A stretch of 39,903 bases of DNA, from positions 1 to 39,903 of the forward strand of contig DSAB01000072.1 of NCBI GenBank assembly GCA_011388275.1, in the 5' to 3' direction. Positions within the stretch are counted from its first letter, which is position 1, and every line of letters starts with the position of its first letter. Shown piece by piece: positions 31,460 to 39,903 of this stretch. Below the pieces are notes generated by a model. It worked only from the letters and a program-made list of their open reading frames with translations. It was not told the origin of the DNA and made no database searches. The translations under genes and the position numbers were made by a program. This DNA comes from a bacterium (GTDB taxonomy: Bacteria > Zhuqueibacterota > QNDG01 > DSAB01).

Positions 31460-32875
31460 ATGAATAAAAAACCCGCTATTCCTCTGGGTATCGCACTCAT
31501 TCCTATTGTCTTCCTGATATTCCTTTTATCCTTTGTAATCATCGTTTTTAAACAATCCCCGCATATTCCGCTGATAATCGCCGCGGCTGCCGCGGCTGTG
31601 GTTGCGGCCTTTTACAAGGTGCCCTGGAAACAGATCGAACAGGGGATGGTTCACGGTATTACTCTGGCCATGGGTGCCATTCTTATTTTACTCGTTGTCG
31701 GGACCATGATCGGAACCTGGATTCTTGGCGGCATTGTCCCGGCCATGATCTACTACGGTCTTCAGATCCTTTCGCCCGGCATTTTTCTTTCAGCTACACT
31801 GATTATCTGTTCGGTGATCTCACTGGGAACCGGTTCATCCTGGTCTACGGCCGGTACCGTTGGCGTCGCCCTGATCGGAGTCGGCCAGGGTCTGGGTATT
31901 CCTGTCCCTATGGTGGCAGGCGCTATTATTTCCGGAGCCTACTTCGGTGACAAAATGTCTCCCCTGTCCGATACCACCAACCTGGCTCCTGCCGTGGCCG
32001 GCACAGATGTTTTTACGCATATCCGTCATATGATGTATACGACCGGGCCGGCCTATATCCTGGCATTGATTCTTTACACGATCATCGGAACACGGTTTGC
32101 CGCCGGACAGCTGGAAACCCGTAATATCGAATTGCTCTTGACCACATTGAGAACCCATTTCTTTATTCACCCCTTACTGCTTTTGCCTCCGGTTCTGGTC
32201 ATTCTGATGGTGATCCTCAAAGTGCCTCCCCTGCCGGCACTTCTTGGCGGCACGATGATTGGAGGAATCTTCGCGCTGGCAGCCCAGTCCGCTTCATTGG
32301 CACATGTATTTGAAGCCGCCTTCTCCGGTTATACCAGCCTGACAGGAGTGCCAATGGTCGATGATCTGCTCACGCGAGGCGGATTGATGAGCATGATGGA
32401 AACCGTGGCATTGATTATGTGCGCTCTCTCCTTCGGCGGCATTATGGAAAAAACCGGAATGCTCGAAACCATTGCCGCCTCGCTACTGAAACGGGTCAAA
32501 CGTACCGGTTCTCTTGTCACCACGACCATTCTGTCCTGTATCGGCATGAACGCCATTGCCTCCGATCAGTACCTGGCCATCGTGATCCCCGGTCGCATGT
32601 ATAAAAAAGCCTTTGACAAGAAAGGCCTGCACCCGAAAAATCTGTCACGGTGTCTGGAAGATGCCGGAACACTCTCTTCACCCCTCATTCCCTGGAACAG
32701 CTGCGGGGCCTTCATGCATGCCACTTTGGGAATCAATCCGCTCTTGTATCTGCCATACGCATTTCTCAACCTGGCCACACCGCTGATCTCAATTTTGTAC
32801 GGGTACACCGGCATCACCATCGAAATGAAAAAGGATCCCGACTCGGCCTCATCAAGCCAGCAGAAGGAAATTTAA
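31460..32875 (+). CDS. nhaC: NhaC-family Na+/H+ antiporter, copy 1
   Basis: A 471-residue polytopic inner-membrane protein of the NhaC family. It shows LGTGSSWSTAGT, GDKMSPLSDTTNLAPA (the family signature) and IASDQYLAIVIPGRMYK near the C-terminal third. NhaC proteins exchange Na+ (or another solute, such as malate/lactate in relatives) for protons. AAGG precedes the start. It is followed 4 bases later by a second nhaC. The promoter at 31279-31307 drives both. Confidence 0.93.
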   Translation: MNKKPAIPLGIALIPIVFLIFLLSFVIIVFKQSPHIPLIIAAAAAAVVAAFYKVPWKQIEQGMVHGITLAMGAILILLVVGTMIGTWILGGIVPAMIYYGLQILSPGIFLSATLIICSVISLGTGSSWSTAGTVGVALIGVGQGLGIPVPMVAGAIISGAYFGDKMSPLSDTTNLAPAVAGTDVFTHIRHMMYTTGPAYILALILYTIIGTRFAAGQLETRNIELLLTTLRTHFFIHPLLLLPPVLVILMVILKVPPLPALLGGTMIGGIFALAAQSASLAHVFEAAFSGYTSLTGVPMVDDLLTRGGLMSMMETVALIMCALSFGGIMEKTGMLETIAASLLKRVKRTGSLVTTTILSCIGMNAIASDQYLAIVIPGRMYKKAFDKKGLHPKNLSRCLEDAGTLSSPLIPWNSCGAFMHATLGINPLLYLPYAFLNLATPLISILYGYTGITIEMKKDPDSASSSQQKEI

Positions 32876-32879
32876 CAAT

Positions 32880-34259
32880 ATGGTCAAACGCAGACCCATT
32901 CCGTTTTTATGGACACTCATCACACTTCTGTTTCTGATGGGGACTCTCTTCCTCTCACTGGTCACCTACGATCAGCCCCCTCACATGGCCCTGATAGCCG
33001 CCTCCGCTCTGGCCGCTCTGGTGGCTCTTCTGCACGGCTTTTCATGGAAGTCCATCGAACAGGGCATGATTCATGGAATCACTCTGGCCATGGGCGCTGT
33101 ACTGATTCTTTTCATCATCGGCATCATGATCGGCATCTGGATTTTGGCCGGCATTGTCCCTTCGATGATCTATTATGGACTCAAGCTCCTCTCTCCCGGT
33201 ATATTCCTCACAGCCGCACTCATTATCTGTTCTATTGTCGCTCTGGGAACCGGTTCATCATGGTCAACCGCCGGAACCATCGGCGTAGCGCTCATCGGTG
33301 TGGGCAGGGGGCTGGGCATTCCGCTGCCCATGGTAGCCGGCGCCATCATCTCCGGCGCGTATTTCGGCGACAAGATGTCTCCGCTCTCGGACACAACCAA
33401 TCTCGCCCCGGCTGTTGCGGGCACCGACCTTTTCAGCCATATCCGTCACATGGTTTATACGACCGTCCCCGCCTACGTGATCGCCCTGATTCTGTTTACG
33501 ATTCTGGGATTCCGATTTGCAGGCGGAGAACTGGATGCTGTGAAAGTCGAGCAGATGCTGGTAACACTGGAATCCGGTTTTTTCATTCATCCTGTCATGC
33601 TTCTGCCACCTTGTCTGGTCATTTTCATGGTTATTCGGAAAACTCCGGCTCTGCCCGCTCTTCTGGTCGGCGCGGTACTGGGAGGATTTTTCGCTTTTAT
33701 CTTCCAGTCCGCTTCAATAAGCGATATATTTCTTTCTGCTTTCTCCGGCTATACCAGCCTGACCGGAGTTCTCATGGTCGATGAACTGCTCTCCCGCGGA
33801 GGGCTGATGAGCATGATGGAAACCGTGGCTTTAATTCTCTGCGCTCTCTCTTTCGGCGGTATCATGGAAAAAACCGGAATGCTTGAAGCGCTTGCCGAAA
33901 CCTTGCTGAAAAAAATTCGCAAACCCGGTTCATTGATTGCCGCCACTCTTTTTTCATGTATTCTGACCAACGCGGCGGCACCCAATCAATACATGTCTCT
34001 GGTCATTCCAGGACGAATGTTCAAACCGGCTTATGACAAAATGGGTCTTCACCCTAAAAATCTGTCCCGCTGCCTCGAAGACGCAGGAACCCTGTCTTCG
34101 CCGCTCATACCCTGGAACAGCTGCGGTGCGTTCATGCATGCCACTCTGGGCGTCAGCCCGCTGCTGTATCTGCCCTATGCTTTTCTGAATGTGTTGTCGC
34201 CCCTGTTTTCGCTGTTTTATGGATATGCGGGAATCACGATTGTCCAAAAAGACCCCTGA
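32880..34259 (+). CDS. nhaC: NhaC-family Na+/H+ antiporter, copy 2
   Basis: A 459-residue close paralog of the preceding gene, clearly a tandem duplication: long stretches such as GDKMSPLSDTTNLAPA are the same. In the motif where copy 1 has IASDQYLAI, this copy has AAPNQYMSL, so the conserved Asp is Asn (codon aat at 33983-33985, read directly). Ion or proton coupling may therefore differ, or the pair may form a heterodimer. AAGGAAA lies upstream at the usual distance. The C-terminal tail is shorter than in copy 1. Confidence 0.93.
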   Translation: MVKRRPIPFLWTLITLLFLMGTLFLSLVTYDQPPHMALIAASALAALVALLHGFSWKSIEQGMIHGITLAMGAVLILFIIGIMIGIWILAGIVPSMIYYGLKLLSPGIFLTAALIICSIVALGTGSSWSTAGTIGVALIGVGRGLGIPLPMVAGAIISGAYFGDKMSPLSDTTNLAPAVAGTDLFSHIRHMVYTTVPAYVIALILFTILGFRFAGGELDAVKVEQMLVTLESGFFIHPVMLLPPCLVIFMVIRKTPALPALLVGAVLGGFFAFIFQSASISDIFLSAFSGYTSLTGVLMVDELLSRGGLMSMMETVALILCALSFGGIMEKTGMLEALAETLLKKIRKPGSLIAATLFSCILTNAAAPNQYMSLVIPGRMFKPAYDKMGLHPKNLSRCLEDAGTLSSPLIPWNSCGAFMHATLGVSPLLYLPYAFLNVLSPLFSLFYGYAGITIVQKDP

Positions 34260-34372
34260 CCCCGTCACGCTGCTTCAATTGTTTTATCGCCCCGTATTTT
34301 TATTCCTGTCCATGCTTGCATCTCGGGGAATCGCAATCTCTATTTCCCGAGAATTCACCTCAAGAGGATGCC

Positions 34373-36769
34373 ATGATTCGCCAGCCTGTTATCGCGCCGG
34401 CCATGAAAGCGGCTGTATTCTTTATAGCCGGCATTGTTTCATCCAAACTGTTCAGTCTTCCTGTGTATGCCGCAGGATTGTCGGCTCTTTTGACCTTTTG
34501 CGCCGCCTGCATCGCCTGGCAAAGAGGGAATCAAACCCTGGTCGGCGTAACCCTCGGCTTCGCGCTTGCCCTATGTGGACATATTCGAATCCTTCAGGTA
34601 AACCGGCTTCCCTCGAATCATGCCATCTTTCAGGTGCCGCTTGAACATTCCGTCATCCTCGATGGAATTGTACTTCAGGATATCCCTTCGGACATGCCTT
34701 CTTTGAGAATTATCATCGGCCTGACCCATTTTCACATTCCAGATTCCGTACAGCCAATACAGGGAAAAGTGCTTGCCTCTTTTCCCTCCAGCATCCACAC
34801 GCAAATACCGCAATACGGCGACCGGGTCCGCATACGGGGAAGGCTTATCCGTCCATCTCCTCCTGCCAATCCAGGTCAATTTGATTACGCGAATTACCTG
34901 TCCAGACAGTCTGTTCATCTGCGCATTCTATGTGATGCACCGATTACCATTCTGGACGGTCAGGGCGGCAGCCGGCTTCTTCGAAGGTTCATTTATCCTC
35001 TTCGACGGCGCTTTTTCCGTATACTCGGCCGAAGTATCTCTTCGGTGAACCTGCCGCTCATGTCGGCACTCCTTTTGGGCGACAAATCCCGCATCACCGA
35101 TGATCAGCGCGAATCCTTTTCCAAAGCGGGCGTTATCCATACTCTGGCAGTCAGCGGTCTTCACGTGGGTTATATACTCATGATTTTTTCTGTTCTCGGC
35201 TCATTTTTCCGACTCAAGAGTTTTTTTCGATTGGCTTTCATCAGCCTCGGTTTGGTGATCTTCTGTTTTCTGACCGGTTCAAAGCCTCCGGTCTTGCGGG
35301 CCACTCTGATGGCCGTTTTGTACCTCTTAGCCAGGGATCTGGAACGATTTCCCCAGCCTGTCAACAGCATTGGATTTTCCGCTCTGGTGTTGTTGATGAT
35401 CAACCCCATGGATCTTTTCGATGCGGGCTTTCAATTGTCCTATTCCGCCGTCCTGTCTATTGTCACGCTTCAGCCCCGCCTGAAAGAATGGACCATTCCC
35501 ATCACATCCCGTCTTCCGCCATGGCTTGCGGGCAGCCTGTCCCTTGTTTGTGTGTCATTATCCGCTCAAATGGGAACGCTTCCCGTCATATCCGCTCAGT
35601 ATCATCTTTTTCCCCTGTATGGGGTCCTGGCAAACTGCCTGATTGTGCCCTTGACAGGCATTGTTACGGCTCTCGGATTCATCACTTTGATTTTCGGTTT
35701 TTTTTCTTCATTCCTGTCCATGATATACGGCGGACTGGCGGATCAGCTGATGACCCTCTTAAGCCGGATCACGGGGTTCGTCTCCCGGCTGCCCGGGGCC
35801 TCCCTTCCCATACCCCCTCTCTCGATCTGGTTCTGGGTCGGTTATCTTTTCCTGCTTTTGGCGATTACCATACGATCCTTCACGGGGATTTTTAAAAAGG
35901 TGATGTTCGCGTCTTTTCTGACCCTAAATATTCATATCTGGAAAGCCGCCATTCAGGCTCCGGCCCGAACAATGACCTGGATTCAGCTGGATGTCGGCCA
36001 GGGTGATTCGGCTGTTCTGCATTTGCCCAGGAGAAAACATATCATCATCGATACAGGAGACCGAAATCCCCGTTACGATTCAGGAAAACATGTTCTCATT
36101 CCCTATTTACGAAGCCGGGGCATTCAAACGATCGATGCACTTTTTCTAACCCACCCCCACAACGATCATATTGGAGGCACCCTGTCTTTGATGGAATACG
36201 GCCGAATTCGCCGGCTTTTTGTGACAGAACGGTTTCAGCGATCCAAACTTTTTCAAGAAATCCTCAAGCGGGCCGATCAATGCCACATACCGGTCATACG
36301 GCTCACCGCACCGGATACTCTCATCTTCCCGGGAATCCGTATGCTGATTCTCTCACCCGACTCAAATCGAAAAAAAGAAGTCTCAAGCGGTCGATGGAAT
36401 GCCAACAATCAATCCATTGTACTCAGAATCCGCTATGGGGATCACAATTTTCTTCTGACAGGCGATGCTGAAATTCCTGTGGAAAAGACCCTGATCGAAT
36501 CAAACCTGCCTCTTCAAAGTGATGTTGTAAAATGCGGCCATCATGGCAGCTCAACATCTTCATCCCCCGCCTTTATCGCTGCCATCCGTCCGCAATTCGC
36601 CGTCATCTCCTCGGGACGGAACAACCGGTTTGGTCATCCATCCCCGCAGGTGGTTCAATACCTTCAAAAAATGCACATATCAGTATCGAGAACGGACCGG
36701 CACGGAGCCGTTTTTTTCTACAGCGACGGCAAATATCTTCGCAAATCTCACTTCAAAAACAGGCAATGA
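34373..36769 (+). CDS. comEC: DNA uptake channel ComEC/Rec2
   Basis: A 798-residue ComEC/Rec2. The N-terminal part has hydrophobic helices and an OB-like soluble domain, the central competence domain begins LMSALLLGDKSRITDDQR and contains HTLAVSGLHVGYIL. The C-terminal metallo-beta-lactamase domain starts LDVGQGDSAVLHLP and has LTHPHNDHIGG (HxHxDH) and KCGHHGSSTSSS. ComEC forms the inner-membrane channel for single-stranded DNA in natural transformation. It is full length. AGAGG precedes the ATG at 34373, so the upstream in-frame TTG at 34316 is not used. Confidence 0.95.
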   Translation: MIRQPVIAPAMKAAVFFIAGIVSSKLFSLPVYAAGLSALLTFCAACIAWQRGNQTLVGVTLGFALALCGHIRILQVNRLPSNHAIFQVPLEHSVILDGIVLQDIPSDMPSLRIIIGLTHFHIPDSVQPIQGKVLASFPSSIHTQIPQYGDRVRIRGRLIRPSPPANPGQFDYANYLSRQSVHLRILCDAPITILDGQGGSRLLRRFIYPLRRRFFRILGRSISSVNLPLMSALLLGDKSRITDDQRESFSKAGVIHTLAVSGLHVGYILMIFSVLGSFFRLKSFFRLAFISLGLVIFCFLTGSKPPVLRATLMAVLYLLARDLERFPQPVNSIGFSALVLLMINPMDLFDAGFQLSYSAVLSIVTLQPRLKEWTIPITSRLPPWLAGSLSLVCVSLSAQMGTLPVISAQYHLFPLYGVLANCLIVPLTGIVTALGFITLIFGFFSSFLSMIYGGLADQLMTLLSRITGFVSRLPGASLPIPPLSIWFWVGYLFLLLAITIRSFTGIFKKVMFASFLTLNIHIWKAAIQAPARTMTWIQLDVGQGDSAVLHLPRRKHIIIDTGDRNPRYDSGKHVLIPYLRSRGIQTIDALFLTHPHNDHIGGTLSLMEYGRIRRLFVTERFQRSKLFQEILKRADQCHIPVIRLTAPDTLIFPGIRMLILSPDSNRKKEVSSGRWNANNQSIVLRIRYGDHNFLLTGDAEIPVEKTLIESNLPLQSDVVKCGHHGSSTSSSPAFIAAIRPQFAVISSGRNNRFGHPSPQVVQYLQKMHISVSRTDRHGAVFFYSDGKYLRKSHFKNRQ

Positions 36770-36855: not shown

Positions 36856-36884
36856 TTGACTTTCCAGGCCCGATTCGATATATT
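36856..36884 (+). promoter_or_regulatory. Promoter of the cobalamin riboswitch unit
   Basis: TTGACT (36856-36861), 17 bases and TATATT (36879-36884) give a near-consensus sigma-70 promoter. Transcription would start just before the riboswitch. Confidence 0.8.
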
Positions 36885-36892
36885 GTACCATC

Positions 36893-37078
36893 GAACGGGT
36901 GTCCTGAAGGGCACATTAATTACCGGGCCCTCTCAGGAAGAATAGGGAATCCCGCGAGAATCGGGAGCTGCCCCGCAACTGTGAGTCCGAAAACGTCTTG
37001 ACAGATACAGCCACTGTTCACGGGTTGATGAATGGGAAGGCCGTCAAGACGGGATAAGCCAGGAGACCTGCCTGTTCA
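36893..37078 (+). promoter_or_regulatory. Cobalamin (adenosylcobalamin-type) riboswitch
   Basis: Conserved elements are in order: GGGAATCCCG and CGGGAGCTGCCCCGCAACTGT (core, about 36947-36983), CCACTG (37011), GGGAAGG (37034) and the B12-box-like GCCAGGAGACCTGCC (37058-37072). The pattern is that of a B12 riboswitch aptamer. A terminator follows at 37115. CGAGGG (37088-37093) is complementary to CCCTCG (37122-37127) inside the terminator, so it can form an antiterminator. B12 binding should lower expression of the S component and receptor genes downstream. Confidence 0.92.
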
Positions 37079-37114
37079 ATATGTCCTCGAGGGAGGGAAT
37101 CACCAAACAGAAGG

Positions 37115-37142
37115 AAACCGGCCCTCGGTGTCGGTTTTTTTA
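37115..37142 (+). terminator. Intrinsic terminator of the riboswitch
   Basis: AAACCG (37115-37120) pairs with CGGTTT (37132-37137), with further pairing inside (GCC with GGT), and a run of T follows. It lies between the aptamer and the first gene, as expected for control by premature termination. Confidence 0.75.
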
Positions 37143-37153
37143 TTTTCCAAACC

Positions 37154-37702
37154 ATGATGCGCACAGCTTACCACATCGCTTCGATCGGTCTCTTTACCGC
37201 CCTGGCAGTCGCGCTGGGCTATGCTTTTGTCGCCATTCCCAACATAGAGATGATAACCCTTTCGGTTTTCCTTGCCGGAATCCTTCTGGGATCCGCGAAA
37301 GGATTCATCGTCGGTTTTTTGGCGGAATTCATTTTCGCCGTATTCAACCCGGTTGGAATGGCCGGTCCGCAGCTTCTGATCGGCATGGTCCTTGGAATGG
37401 CATTGATCGGTCTTGCCGGCGGCCTGTTTGGAAAATTTCGAAAAACCAAATACTCCCCCCGTATCCTTCTGTTTTTTACCGGAGTGGCCTGTACCGTTCT
37501 TTTTGATCTCCTGACCACGGTTTCATTCGCTTTGATGACTGGATTGAGTCCGGGGCAAACCGCAGCGACTTACGTGGCTGGCGCCTGGTTCTATCTGATT
37601 CATATGCTTGGAAATGGAATGCTCTTTTTTCTGTTGATACCCACTTTGTCACGTTTATGGCAAAATACATCCTGTGGACCGCTCCGGGAAGGTGTTTCAT
37701 GA
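37154..37702 (+). CDS. ECF transporter S component (probable cobalamin-related)
   Basis: A 182-residue membrane protein with five to six hydrophobic helices (for example MRTAYHIASIGLFTALAVALGYAF, ITLSVFLAGILLGSAKGFIVGF) and the conserved FNPVGMAGPQLLIGMVLGMALIGLAGGLFG, matching ECF-type vitamin transporter S components. Such proteins bind a vitamin and require an ATPase/T module (EcfA/EcfT) that is not in this window. Position directly behind a B12 riboswitch argues for cobalamin or a precursor as substrate. The stop overlaps the start of the TonB receptor gene by 4 bases (ATGA). Confidence 0.82.
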   Translation: MMRTAYHIASIGLFTALAVALGYAFVAIPNIEMITLSVFLAGILLGSAKGFIVGFLAEFIFAVFNPVGMAGPQLLIGMVLGMALIGLAGGLFGKFRKTKYSPRILLFFTGVACTVLFDLLTTVSFALMTGLSPGQTAATYVAGAWFYLIHMLGNGMLFFLLIPTLSRLWQNTSCGPLREGVS

Positions 37703-39597
37703 TAATCCGGCGTTCGTACATACCGATTTTATTCCTGTTGCTTTCCTGCATGAACCTGTCAGGCCAGGAATTCAAGCCGCTTTATGAATGGGATATTCAT
37801 GAATTCAAACGTATGCCCTATACCTACGCGGGTGATTTGCTGTCTGCCATTCCAGGTTTAAGGGTGCGTGATGCCGGTCTTACGGGTCAATGGGCTCCCT
37901 GTCGAATTCGGGGAAGCAGTGAAAACCAGGCGCTCATCTTTATCGACGGCCTTCTTTTTAATGATCCGTGGACCGGTTTCGCCGATCTGAATGTGATTCC
38001 TGTCGAGATCATGGATAAAATCGAATATTATCCTTTGATGAATCCTTTCGGCCGCCATGCTCCAGGCGGCGCGGTCAATATCGTGACTCGAAAATGGAAT
38101 TTCAATCAGCCGTTTACTCATGTCGTCTATCGAAGCGGGAGTCAATCTTTCAGTGATCTGGATGTCACCTATGCTCAGCCATTCACATCCTATCTTCGCA
38201 TGACAGCAGGGGTTCTCTTGAAAAAATACGGTGAAACCCTGGAAGACAGTCAATACAAGGCTCAGAAAACCCGGCTTCAATTGCAGCTCAAACCCGCCTC
38301 CGAAATCGAGATAGACTATCGTCTCTACAACTACCGTTCATCGGCGGATATCCCCTATGATCAGTTTTTTCCCGATGACACCGTATCTGTCATGTCCCCA
38401 CATCTGGACATTAAAAGAATCGATCAGGACTTTTCCTTGCGGTGGAACAGATCCCTGCCCTTTTCCATCCGTATCACTCACAACGCATCGGTATTTCGAA
38501 TGCGTGATAACGCATTCGATGCTGCGTTCACTTACCCGGGATCCCAAACGAACCTGCAAGCGCAACAACAGGTATCAAATAAGATTCCTCTGCGCCTGTT
38601 TGCCAACTGGACGAAAAGCGCACTTCAACCTCCGGATGGACCGGGAACGGATCAGTCGATTTTTACAGGAGGCATTCACTGGCAAATGCACCTGCCCGGT
38701 CTCTGGACGGTCAACGGTCAATGCTATCTAATCCATCCCTCCAATCACGATGTCAAGCCTTCCCTCGGCATGGAACTGGCCAGATCCCGTTCAGCTTTTC
38801 GTTTCAGTATTCAATGGCTTCACTCTGTCAGGCCTCCTTCCATGATGGAACAGACCGGCCTGGCTTATTACCCGTTCGCACCCGGAACCCAGAATGTCTT
38901 TGATCAAGGCACTCAAACCGCAGCCAGGCCCGGATTTTACTTGGCCGACACGGCTGCGCCGTATTCTTTTCATCTTCGCTCACTGGACAGGGTAACGATT
39001 CCCAATTGGTCGCTTTCAGCCGAATCATTTCATACAGGTCAATTATCGGTATTTTGGCAGCCCGTTCCGGCCATTAATCTGATGTCCACCGGATATCTCC
39101 GCAGCGTTCAAAACACGATCCATCCCGAAATCACCGATGAAGGCATTCAATACCGGAATACGGACTCTCAAACCTATTATGGTTTGGAAACAGTTTCCCG
39201 TTTGCGGTTTTTTCGCAACTTTGATCTTTCTCTTTCAGGAATCTGGTCGCAAACCATCGATCCTGAGCCGGTTCCGGAACATCCCCCCTGGGAAGGGCAG
39301 ATACGTCTCGAGTGGAATTATTCATTGTTTCAGGACGATCTGGACATCGTCCTTATGCTCAGAGCCAGGGGGTGGTCCTCTTTTATGATCTATCATAAGT
39401 TCGAGGATGCAGTTCGGAAAGAGACCCTTTCTTCTCATGCATTACTGGATTTTAAGGCCTCTTTCAATATAATTGACAACGTGACGGTTTCTTACGCACT
39501 TGAAAATCTGCTGGACTCATACTATGAACTTGTTCCGGGAATCGCTCTTCCGGGACGACGCAATCGGTTGAGCATAAGCTGGAAACTGTATAATTGA
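37699..39597 (+). CDS. TonB-dependent outer-membrane receptor, BtuB-like
   Basis: A 632-residue receptor with a signal peptide (MIIRRSYIPILFLLLSCMNLSGQ). The plug domain contains LSAIPGLRVRDAGL, CRIRGSSENQALIFIDG, IPVEIMDKIEYYP and APGGAVNIVTRK. The rest is barrel strands ending in RRNRLSISWKLYN. Location in the same riboswitch-controlled operon as the S component makes corrinoid the likely ligand. The ATG overlaps the previous stop (ATGA), preceded by GGGAAGG. No obvious TonB box was located near the N-terminus. Confidence 0.88.
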   Translation: MIIRRSYIPILFLLLSCMNLSGQEFKPLYEWDIHEFKRMPYTYAGDLLSAIPGLRVRDAGLTGQWAPCRIRGSSENQALIFIDGLLFNDPWTGFADLNVIPVEIMDKIEYYPLMNPFGRHAPGGAVNIVTRKWNFNQPFTHVVYRSGSQSFSDLDVTYAQPFTSYLRMTAGVLLKKYGETLEDSQYKAQKTRLQLQLKPASEIEIDYRLYNYRSSADIPYDQFFPDDTVSVMSPHLDIKRIDQDFSLRWNRSLPFSIRITHNASVFRMRDNAFDAAFTYPGSQTNLQAQQQVSNKIPLRLFANWTKSALQPPDGPGTDQSIFTGGIHWQMHLPGLWTVNGQCYLIHPSNHDVKPSLGMELARSRSAFRFSIQWLHSVRPPSMMEQTGLAYYPFAPGTQNVFDQGTQTAARPGFYLADTAAPYSFHLRSLDRVTIPNWSLSAESFHTGQLSVFWQPVPAINLMSTGYLRSVQNTIHPEITDEGIQYRNTDSQTYYGLETVSRLRFFRNFDLSLSGIWSQTIDPEPVPEHPPWEGQIRLEWNYSLFQDDLDIVLMLRARGWSSFMIYHKFEDAVRKETLSSHALLDFKASFNIIDNVTVSYALENLLDSYYELVPGIALPGRRNRLSISWKLYN

Positions 39598-39620: not shown

Positions 39621-39706
39621 TAACCTGAATAATTCACAAATAGAATTATTCGGGTTATCCCGACTTTCAATCCTATCTTTTCTATTTATGAATAAGTCGG
39701 GATAAC
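39621..39706. repeat. Dispersed palindromic repeat, copy C (short form)
   Basis: Hairpin 1: TAACCTGAATAATTC (39621-39635), loop ACAAATA, GAATTATTCGGGTTA (39643-39657), one G-T pair. Hairpin 2: GTTATCCCGACTT (39654-39666) with AAGTCGGGATAAC (39694-39706). The right half equals 62-124 of copy A; the left half equals 16526-16554 of copy B. Here the halves join at a single GAATTAT, where copy A has an extra segment flanked by AATTAT copies. Confidence 0.85.
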
Positions 39707-39711
39707 AACGC

Positions 39712-39885
39712 ACAGATCCGTGTTTCATCCGTTCACGGGACCCGTTCGGGAAGGCGGTGTGAATCCGCCACAGCCCCGCTACTGTATTCGGTGACGAAAA
39801 CCGGCAACCACTGTCAGCTGCTTTTGATGGGAAGGGCCGGCCAGTAGGCTGGAGCCGTAAGTCAGGAGATCGGCGAGTCTCAATC
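39712..39885 (+). promoter_or_regulatory. Second cobalamin riboswitch
   Basis: It shows GGGAAGGCGGTGTGAATCCG (about 39748), CAGCCCCGCTACTGT (39771-39785), CAACCACTG (39805-39813), GATGGGAAGG (39826-39835) and GTAAGTCAGGAGATCGGC (39857-39874), the full set of conserved aptamer elements. The controlled gene lies outside; further B12 uptake or synthesis genes are expected. Confidence 0.93.
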
Positions 39886-39903
39886 CACTAACCTCCGCTT
39901 TCG

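Follow-up and report, generated by a model that had tools for sequence, protein, structure and literature searches.

Organization of the locus and its cobalamin riboswitch leader

The window spans the entire contig G000:C16 (39,903 nt) of the draft genome G000, which comprises 2.82 Mb and is 96.5% complete. At the contig end, a cobalamin riboswitch, a terminator hairpin, the gene of an ECF S component, the gene of a TonB receptor and a second cobalamin riboswitch follow each other in this order:

36856-36884, + strand: weak sigma-70-like promoter candidate (TTGACT-17-TATATT; motif scan)
36880-37089, + strand: cobalamin riboswitch aptamer (RF00174, 108.1 bits, E 2.5e-26)
37088-37093, + strand: candidate 5' half of an antiterminator (CGAGGG), exact complement of 37122-37127
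37111-37141, + strand: intrinsic terminator hairpin with U run, holding the antiterminator 3' half at 37122-37127 (MFE fold, terminator scan)
37154-37702, + strand: CbrT-like ECF S component, 182 aa (profile, fold and sequence matches)
37699-39597, + strand: BtuB-like TonB-dependent receptor, 632 aa from the ATG at 37699 (PF07715 plug, PDB matches)
39701-39892, + strand: second cobalamin riboswitch aptamer (RF00174, 82.4 bits), downstream gene off the contig

Both aptamers scored above the curated gathering score of RF00174 (31.5 bits), and both cobalamin riboswitches found in G000 are located in the window. The upstream aptamer had already been recognized in a first-pass annotation of this DNA, from which the second one, nearly reaching the contig end, was absent. 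A further BtuB-type receptor, larger than the first, is probably the target of the second riboswitch, as genome G002 showed the same order in complete form, with a riboswitch before such a receptor. The only close match to that receptor in G000, a protein of 732 aa, has its start 7 nt away from the C46 contig end; this contig shares no sequence overlap with the end of the window, so that their join is presumed.

Both the MFE fold and the terminator scan showed the terminator claimed earlier, a strong hairpin followed by a U run at about 37111-37141. Three terminator-like sites were found in the 551-nt region against 0.5 expected, and a terminator occurred at the matching place in seven of the nine homologous leaders directly preceding an S gene. 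The proposed antiterminator pairing, CGAGGG (37088-37093) with CCCTCG (37122-37127), was found to be exact. By itself this pairing is borderline (P about 0.09 by shuffling). Complementary boxes of at least 5 bp could also be observed in six of the seven homologous leaders having a terminator, and the boxes summed over the seven leaders amounted to 42 bp as compared with 30.7 expected, a value reached in 0 of 2000 shuffles; as the boxes were picked by eye and the leaders are related, this comparison is supporting rather than conclusive. The promoter suggested in the annotation did not exceed chance (one site found, 0.7 expected), and its -10 element extends into the beginning of the aptamer match.

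The two genes share exactly the four bases ATGA (37699-37702), as had been claimed, with an SD-like GGGAAGG just 5' of the overlap. The description of the two as translationally fused was incorrect for this locus, where they are coupled but separate genes. Directly upstream of the unit lies a ComEC gene (34316-36769), an arrangement also observed in G006 and G008 (L096 and L068), for which a functional reason is not obvious. Further upstream, two adjacent antiporter-like genes (31460-32875 and 32880-34259) are 70% identical and, judged by their sequences, represent a tandem duplication.

Identity of the S component and the receptor

The reading of the 182-aa ORF as an ECF S component was in agreement with its fold and with family matches lying below their cut-offs. 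The protein scored 28.6 bits with PF12822 (cut-off 30.7), 26.3 with PF07155 (cut-off 26.7) and, well below threshold, 29 with TIGR04518 of NCBIfam (cut-off 60). Its AF2 model (pLDDT 92.7) showed the six-helix S-component fold, and the first 21 matches in a fold search of the PDB were all ECF S components (RibU, PanT, FolT, ThiT and others), with TM up to 0.70. A sequence search of the PDB with the single window protein yielded a chance match only. When an alignment of 61 relatives (A1) was used as family profile, the only significant chain was 6FNP chain A (CbrT; E 9.9e-9), followed by PanT with E 0.28, so that the kinship with CbrT is visible at the profile level only. 6FNP is ECF-CbrT, a vitamin B12 transporter (PMC5997447).

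BtuM was not found by the profile search of the PDB, and no cysteine column corresponding to its invariant cysteine could be observed in the alignment (cysteine in at most 8 of 61 sequences). An AxxxA motif was present in TM1 (A16-A20 of the window protein), with alanine in 56 and 46 of the 61 sequences at the two positions. Assignment to the BtuM family was rejected, since the conserved cysteine is missing in the 61 relatives and ECF module genes are present; assignment to folate or riboflavin was rejected because the respective matches were below curated cut-offs. The S component is CbrT-like, most likely of the B12 type, and is predicted from its sequence relatives to bind corrinoids.

The ORF at 37699-39597, claimed to be a TonB receptor, gave a PF07715 plug match of 36.2 bits, and its nearest PDB sequences were those of E. 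coli BtuB (E 7e-15). The BtuB equivalog model TIGR01779 was the best of all models, with 77.1 bits against a cut-off of 599.7; as this cut-off was not reached, the protein is labelled BtuB-like.

ECF module and B12 economy of the genome

The absence of EcfA and EcfT genes from the locus, pointed out in the first-pass annotation, was confirmed, as the module genes lie on other contigs. Of the two options offered there, a shared or an absent module, the former stood and the latter did not. Two adjacent ECF ATPase genes (ecfA1A2) were located at G000:C6:30377-31986, scoring narrowly below the cut-offs of ECF_ATPase_1 (277.6 bits, cut-off 315) and ECF_ATPase_2 (308.8 bits, cut-off 330), and a lone ecfT was found beside truA on contig C18. 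A separate CbiM-CbiQ-CbiO set on C79 is a metal importer; its CbiQ was set aside as EcfT of the B12 transporter in favour of the gene on C18. The ECF genes are neither co-regulated with nor adjacent to the S gene, so that docking of the S component on this module is a prediction. Two other S components, a BioY-like protein on C1 and an orphan on C61, could use the same module. The orphan gene (L059:1-537), cut by the contig start, lies upstream of larE- and larC-like genes.

Seven matches to B12-binding domains were obtained in G000, while the cobalamin synthase CobS was not found in this genome. By its gene content, G000 thus appears to use B12 but to lack the final step of B12 synthesis, which suits dependence on import.

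Alternation of the S component with BtuC

The proposal that an S component takes the place of BtuCDF held up: BtuC (PF01032) was not found in the 96.5%-complete G000, where the best match reached 25.3 bits and remained under the cut-off. As G000 is a draft genome, this absence is strong, not absolute. Nor did the S component fall among binders of other vitamins, its nearest solved relative being the B12-binding CbrT. The 25.3-bit match, a FecCD hit on contig C56, was rejected as BtuC, as it belongs to an ABC-3 Zn-type permease operon, in which genes for a ZnuA-like protein and for an ABC ATPase precede it.

To extend the comparison, 81 genomes consisting of G000 and its relatives were examined, BtuC being scored at about 290 bits or more. 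The S component was present in 60 of these genomes and BtuC in eight, and no genome contained both (Fisher p 6e-6, uncorrected for ancestry). The 13 genomes with neither were mostly less complete assemblies. Switches between the two could be observed inside single families: in f4, G004 has the S component and G009 BtuC, and in f20, G046 and G069 have the S component and G067 BtuC. In G009, which is without the S component, a cobalamin riboswitch precedes cobT-btuF-btuC-btuD. Judged by gene content, the S-receptor system most likely takes over the role of BtuCDF in the majority of the sampled phylum. EcfT/CbiQ-family genes were found in 75 of the 81 genomes. G006 and G016 contained the S component, but EcfT/CbiQ was not found in the genome search, indicating either assembly gaps or S components working alone.

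Pairing with the receptor and riboswitches in relatives

A total of 63 S loci were compared, nearly all from the phylum and few from outside. Seven were fused to a receptor, and in 54 the receptor gene followed immediately in the same orientation, 32 of these pairs overlapping by 4 nt (NTGA). One of the remaining loci ended at a contig edge and the other, from outside the phylum, was without a receptor; the receptor thus directly followed the S component in 61 of 62 testable loci. A search of named genomes with the window S protein alone matched nothing, but a pattern derived from eight closer sequences gave matches, and the pairing held in most of the named genomes found, belonging to candidate division KSB1, Calditrichota, Neomarinimicrobiota, Zixibacteria, Latescibacterota and Krumholzibacteria and including one Gemmatimonadota chromosome.

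A cobalamin riboswitch was located directly 5' of the S gene in G000, G002, G007, G008, G011, G014, G022, G026 and G088, and at a sub-threshold score of 30.5 bits in G001. In some other relatives, it preceded a second receptor beside the S-receptor pair. Cobalamin was the only riboswitch class detected near the scanned S genes. Many pairs in the phylum stood among unrelated genes and had no adjoining riboswitch, so that support for a corrinoid substrate is strongest at the riboswitch-linked loci, among which is that of the window. In G088, which lies outside the phylum, the riboswitch (L148:5500-5631) ends 2 nt before the S ORF and no terminator was seen, suggesting translational rather than transcriptional control.

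A secreted protein of about 630 aa, carrying a FlgD_ig or sorting tail, was encoded after the second receptor at L109:9830-11719 and L042:6120-8045, and ORFs of the same size were observed in L104, L110, L113 and L131. The L109 protein gave a sub-threshold match to a YNCE-like beta-propeller. These proteins recall BtuG of Bacteroides, a surface B12-binding propeller.

S component and receptor in one ORF

A single ORF encoded both the S domain and the receptor in seven genomes, which belong to four families: G006 (f6), G023 (f15), G046 and G069 (f20), and G014, G022 and G026 (f9). Two fusions are readable in the named records MZGM01000154.1 (KSB1 4484_219, L166) and WJJN01000246.1 (KSB1 Bin_079, L167). 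When the fused state was placed on the S tree, four changes were needed, at least two of them forced by strongly supported branches. In f6, f15 and f20, the junction between the domains consists of a basic stretch and a hydrophobic segment, mostly with an AxA-like site, as in KRIPNLQSR-FLLLLLVVNLLVTCVPNYALA-S and KIDYFKPR-LVGGVLLLLCILMNYPESAAA-S. Changes in the junction follow the pattern of a coding sequence, with an excess at third positions, and the motif KIDYFKPRL of f20 is identical across two genera, which makes an assembly error unlikely in this family. In the AF2 model of the L167 fusion, the S domain (residues 1-178) was ordered, whereas order was poor in the junction, which includes a helix at 184-198; these were followed by a plug and barrel, for which the ten best PDB matches were all BtuB.

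The receptor of the f9 fusions is of another type, carrying a CarboxypepD_reg domain, and an internal ATG behind an SD-like GGGAGG is a plausible separate receptor start; these fusions were consequently not taken to prove a polyprotein. In G023 and G069, in-frame ATGs lie close to where TM6 ends, while no good internal start was found in the fused ORFs of G006 and G046.

The C-terminus of S components is cytoplasmic, so that an internal signal peptide at the junction would be rightly oriented. We lean towards the view that in several KSB1-type lineages both proteins are translated as one polyprotein that is cleaved by signal peptidase. The six-helix S domain would remain in the inner membrane with its C-terminal end in the cytoplasm, a signal-peptide-like seventh segment would take the chain outward, and cleavage would let the BtuB-like receptor proceed to the outer membrane. 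Selection may have acted on the synthesis of both halves at a fixed 1:1 ratio, and the ATGA-coupled pair of the window could represent a further form of this coupling. In their layout, the fused relatives resemble the FbcH polyprotein of Bradyrhizobium (cytochrome b-c1), a likeness which we treat as a lead only. In FbcH, an inner-membrane protein with a cytoplasmic C-terminus is followed by an internal signal peptide, whose cleavage frees the next protein. Both FbcH products remain in one inner-membrane complex, whereas the second product of the fused relatives would be an outer-membrane barrel. No description of a fusion between an S component and a TonB receptor was found in the open-access papers searched; one may exist elsewhere.

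Proposed uptake route and alternative explanations

We consider it quite probable that the locus is a B12-repressed corrinoid uptake unit serving both membranes, which relies on a shared ECF module and replaces BtuCDF. The ligand, transport, docking on the shared module and direction of the switch are what we infer. When cobalamin is scarce, antitermination in the leader would allow read-through into one mRNA, from which both proteins would be made, the ATGA overlap coupling translation of the receptor to that of the S gene. The BtuB-like receptor, energized by TonB, would bring the corrinoid across the outer membrane, and the CbrT-like S component would capture it at the inner membrane and dock on EcfA1/EcfA2/EcfT for delivery. 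With cobalamin plentiful, the aptamer would favour the terminator and the unit would be switched off.

The S component might instead act alone, without an ECF module, as BtuM or a solitary BioY. The S gene was never found beside ecfA or ecfT, two S-bearing genomes gave no EcfT/CbiQ hit, and BtuM has been reported to be functional without a module (PMC6072759). Solitary action is nevertheless unlikely, as EcfA1, EcfA2 and EcfT are encoded in G000 and module genes occur in most S-bearing relatives too, the AxxxA motif associated with module docking is conserved, the invariant cysteine of BtuM is absent, and CbrT as nearest solved relative is not functional alone (PMC5997447). That the substrate is a B12 precursor or a lower-ligand piece (cobinamide, or alpha-ribazole as for CblT) rather than cobalamin has a slightly smaller chance still: the riboswitch marks B12-related genes in general and CbrT takes cobinamide too (PMC5997447), but lower-ligand pieces would hardly be usable in G000, where no CobS was found, and the S component alternates with BtuC, a corrinoid permease, and is paired with a BtuB-like receptor. 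Cobinamide is possible as an additional substrate.

Specificity for another vitamin (folate, riboflavin or thiamine), with the gene placed in a B12 operon by chance, is the least probable of these explanations and would be surprising. S models for folate and riboflavin matched weakly, and the riboswitch-less pairs of some genomes adjoin thiD, panB or other genes; the model matches were, however, below cut-off, and the profile significantly matched CbrT alone although structures of RibU, FolT, ThiT and BioY were in the PDB library. Mutual exclusion with BtuC and the lack of any other riboswitch class near the scanned S genes likewise argue against another vitamin and for the B12-repressed corrinoid uptake unit.

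Relation to known systems and significance

The locus is built from known kinds of element, namely a cobalamin riboswitch, a CbrT and a BtuB. With ECF-CbrT of Lactobacillus delbrueckii (Group II, PDB 6FNP) it shares the S fold, CbrT being the sole significant sequence relative in the PDB, and the presence of genes for a shared EcfA1/EcfA2/EcfT module; CbrT without its module did not support growth (PMC5997447). It differs in that G000 is a two-membrane bacterium with a dedicated TonB receptor, encoded by an overlapping gene under one cobalamin riboswitch, and the identity of the window S component to CbrT is remote, at profile level only. The solitary BtuM of Thiobacillus denitrificans is likewise the S component of a two-membrane bacterium and is thought to take the role of BtuCDF, but the window protein is without the invariant cobalt-ligating cysteine of BtuM (PMC6072759) and G000 has an ECF module. 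As in the E. coli BtuB-BtuCDF system, a BtuB-like outer-membrane receptor and control by a cobalamin riboswitch were present, whereas the inner-membrane step is assigned to an ECF S component, and BtuC is absent from G000 and exclusive with the S component in the phylum. In our reading, three features are new: an S-receptor pairing that stays fixed across phyla in the neighbourhood of KSB1, the clean exclusion between the S component and BtuC, and the fusions of inner- and outer-membrane proteins.

BtuCDF has been predicted in only about half of B12-auxotrophic bacteria (PMC6072759), leaving many auxotrophs without a known inner-membrane importer, and the S family described here offers a testable answer. 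This answer covers most sampled genomes of one phylum in the neighbourhood of KSB1 and Calditrichota; through the gene pairing found there as well, it extends to Neomarinimicrobiota, Zixibacteria, Latescibacterota and other groups. Provided that a single chain is produced from them, the fused genes would give a bacterial polyprotein of a rare kind, serving both membranes, and a natural experiment on the tying of two vitamin-import steps.
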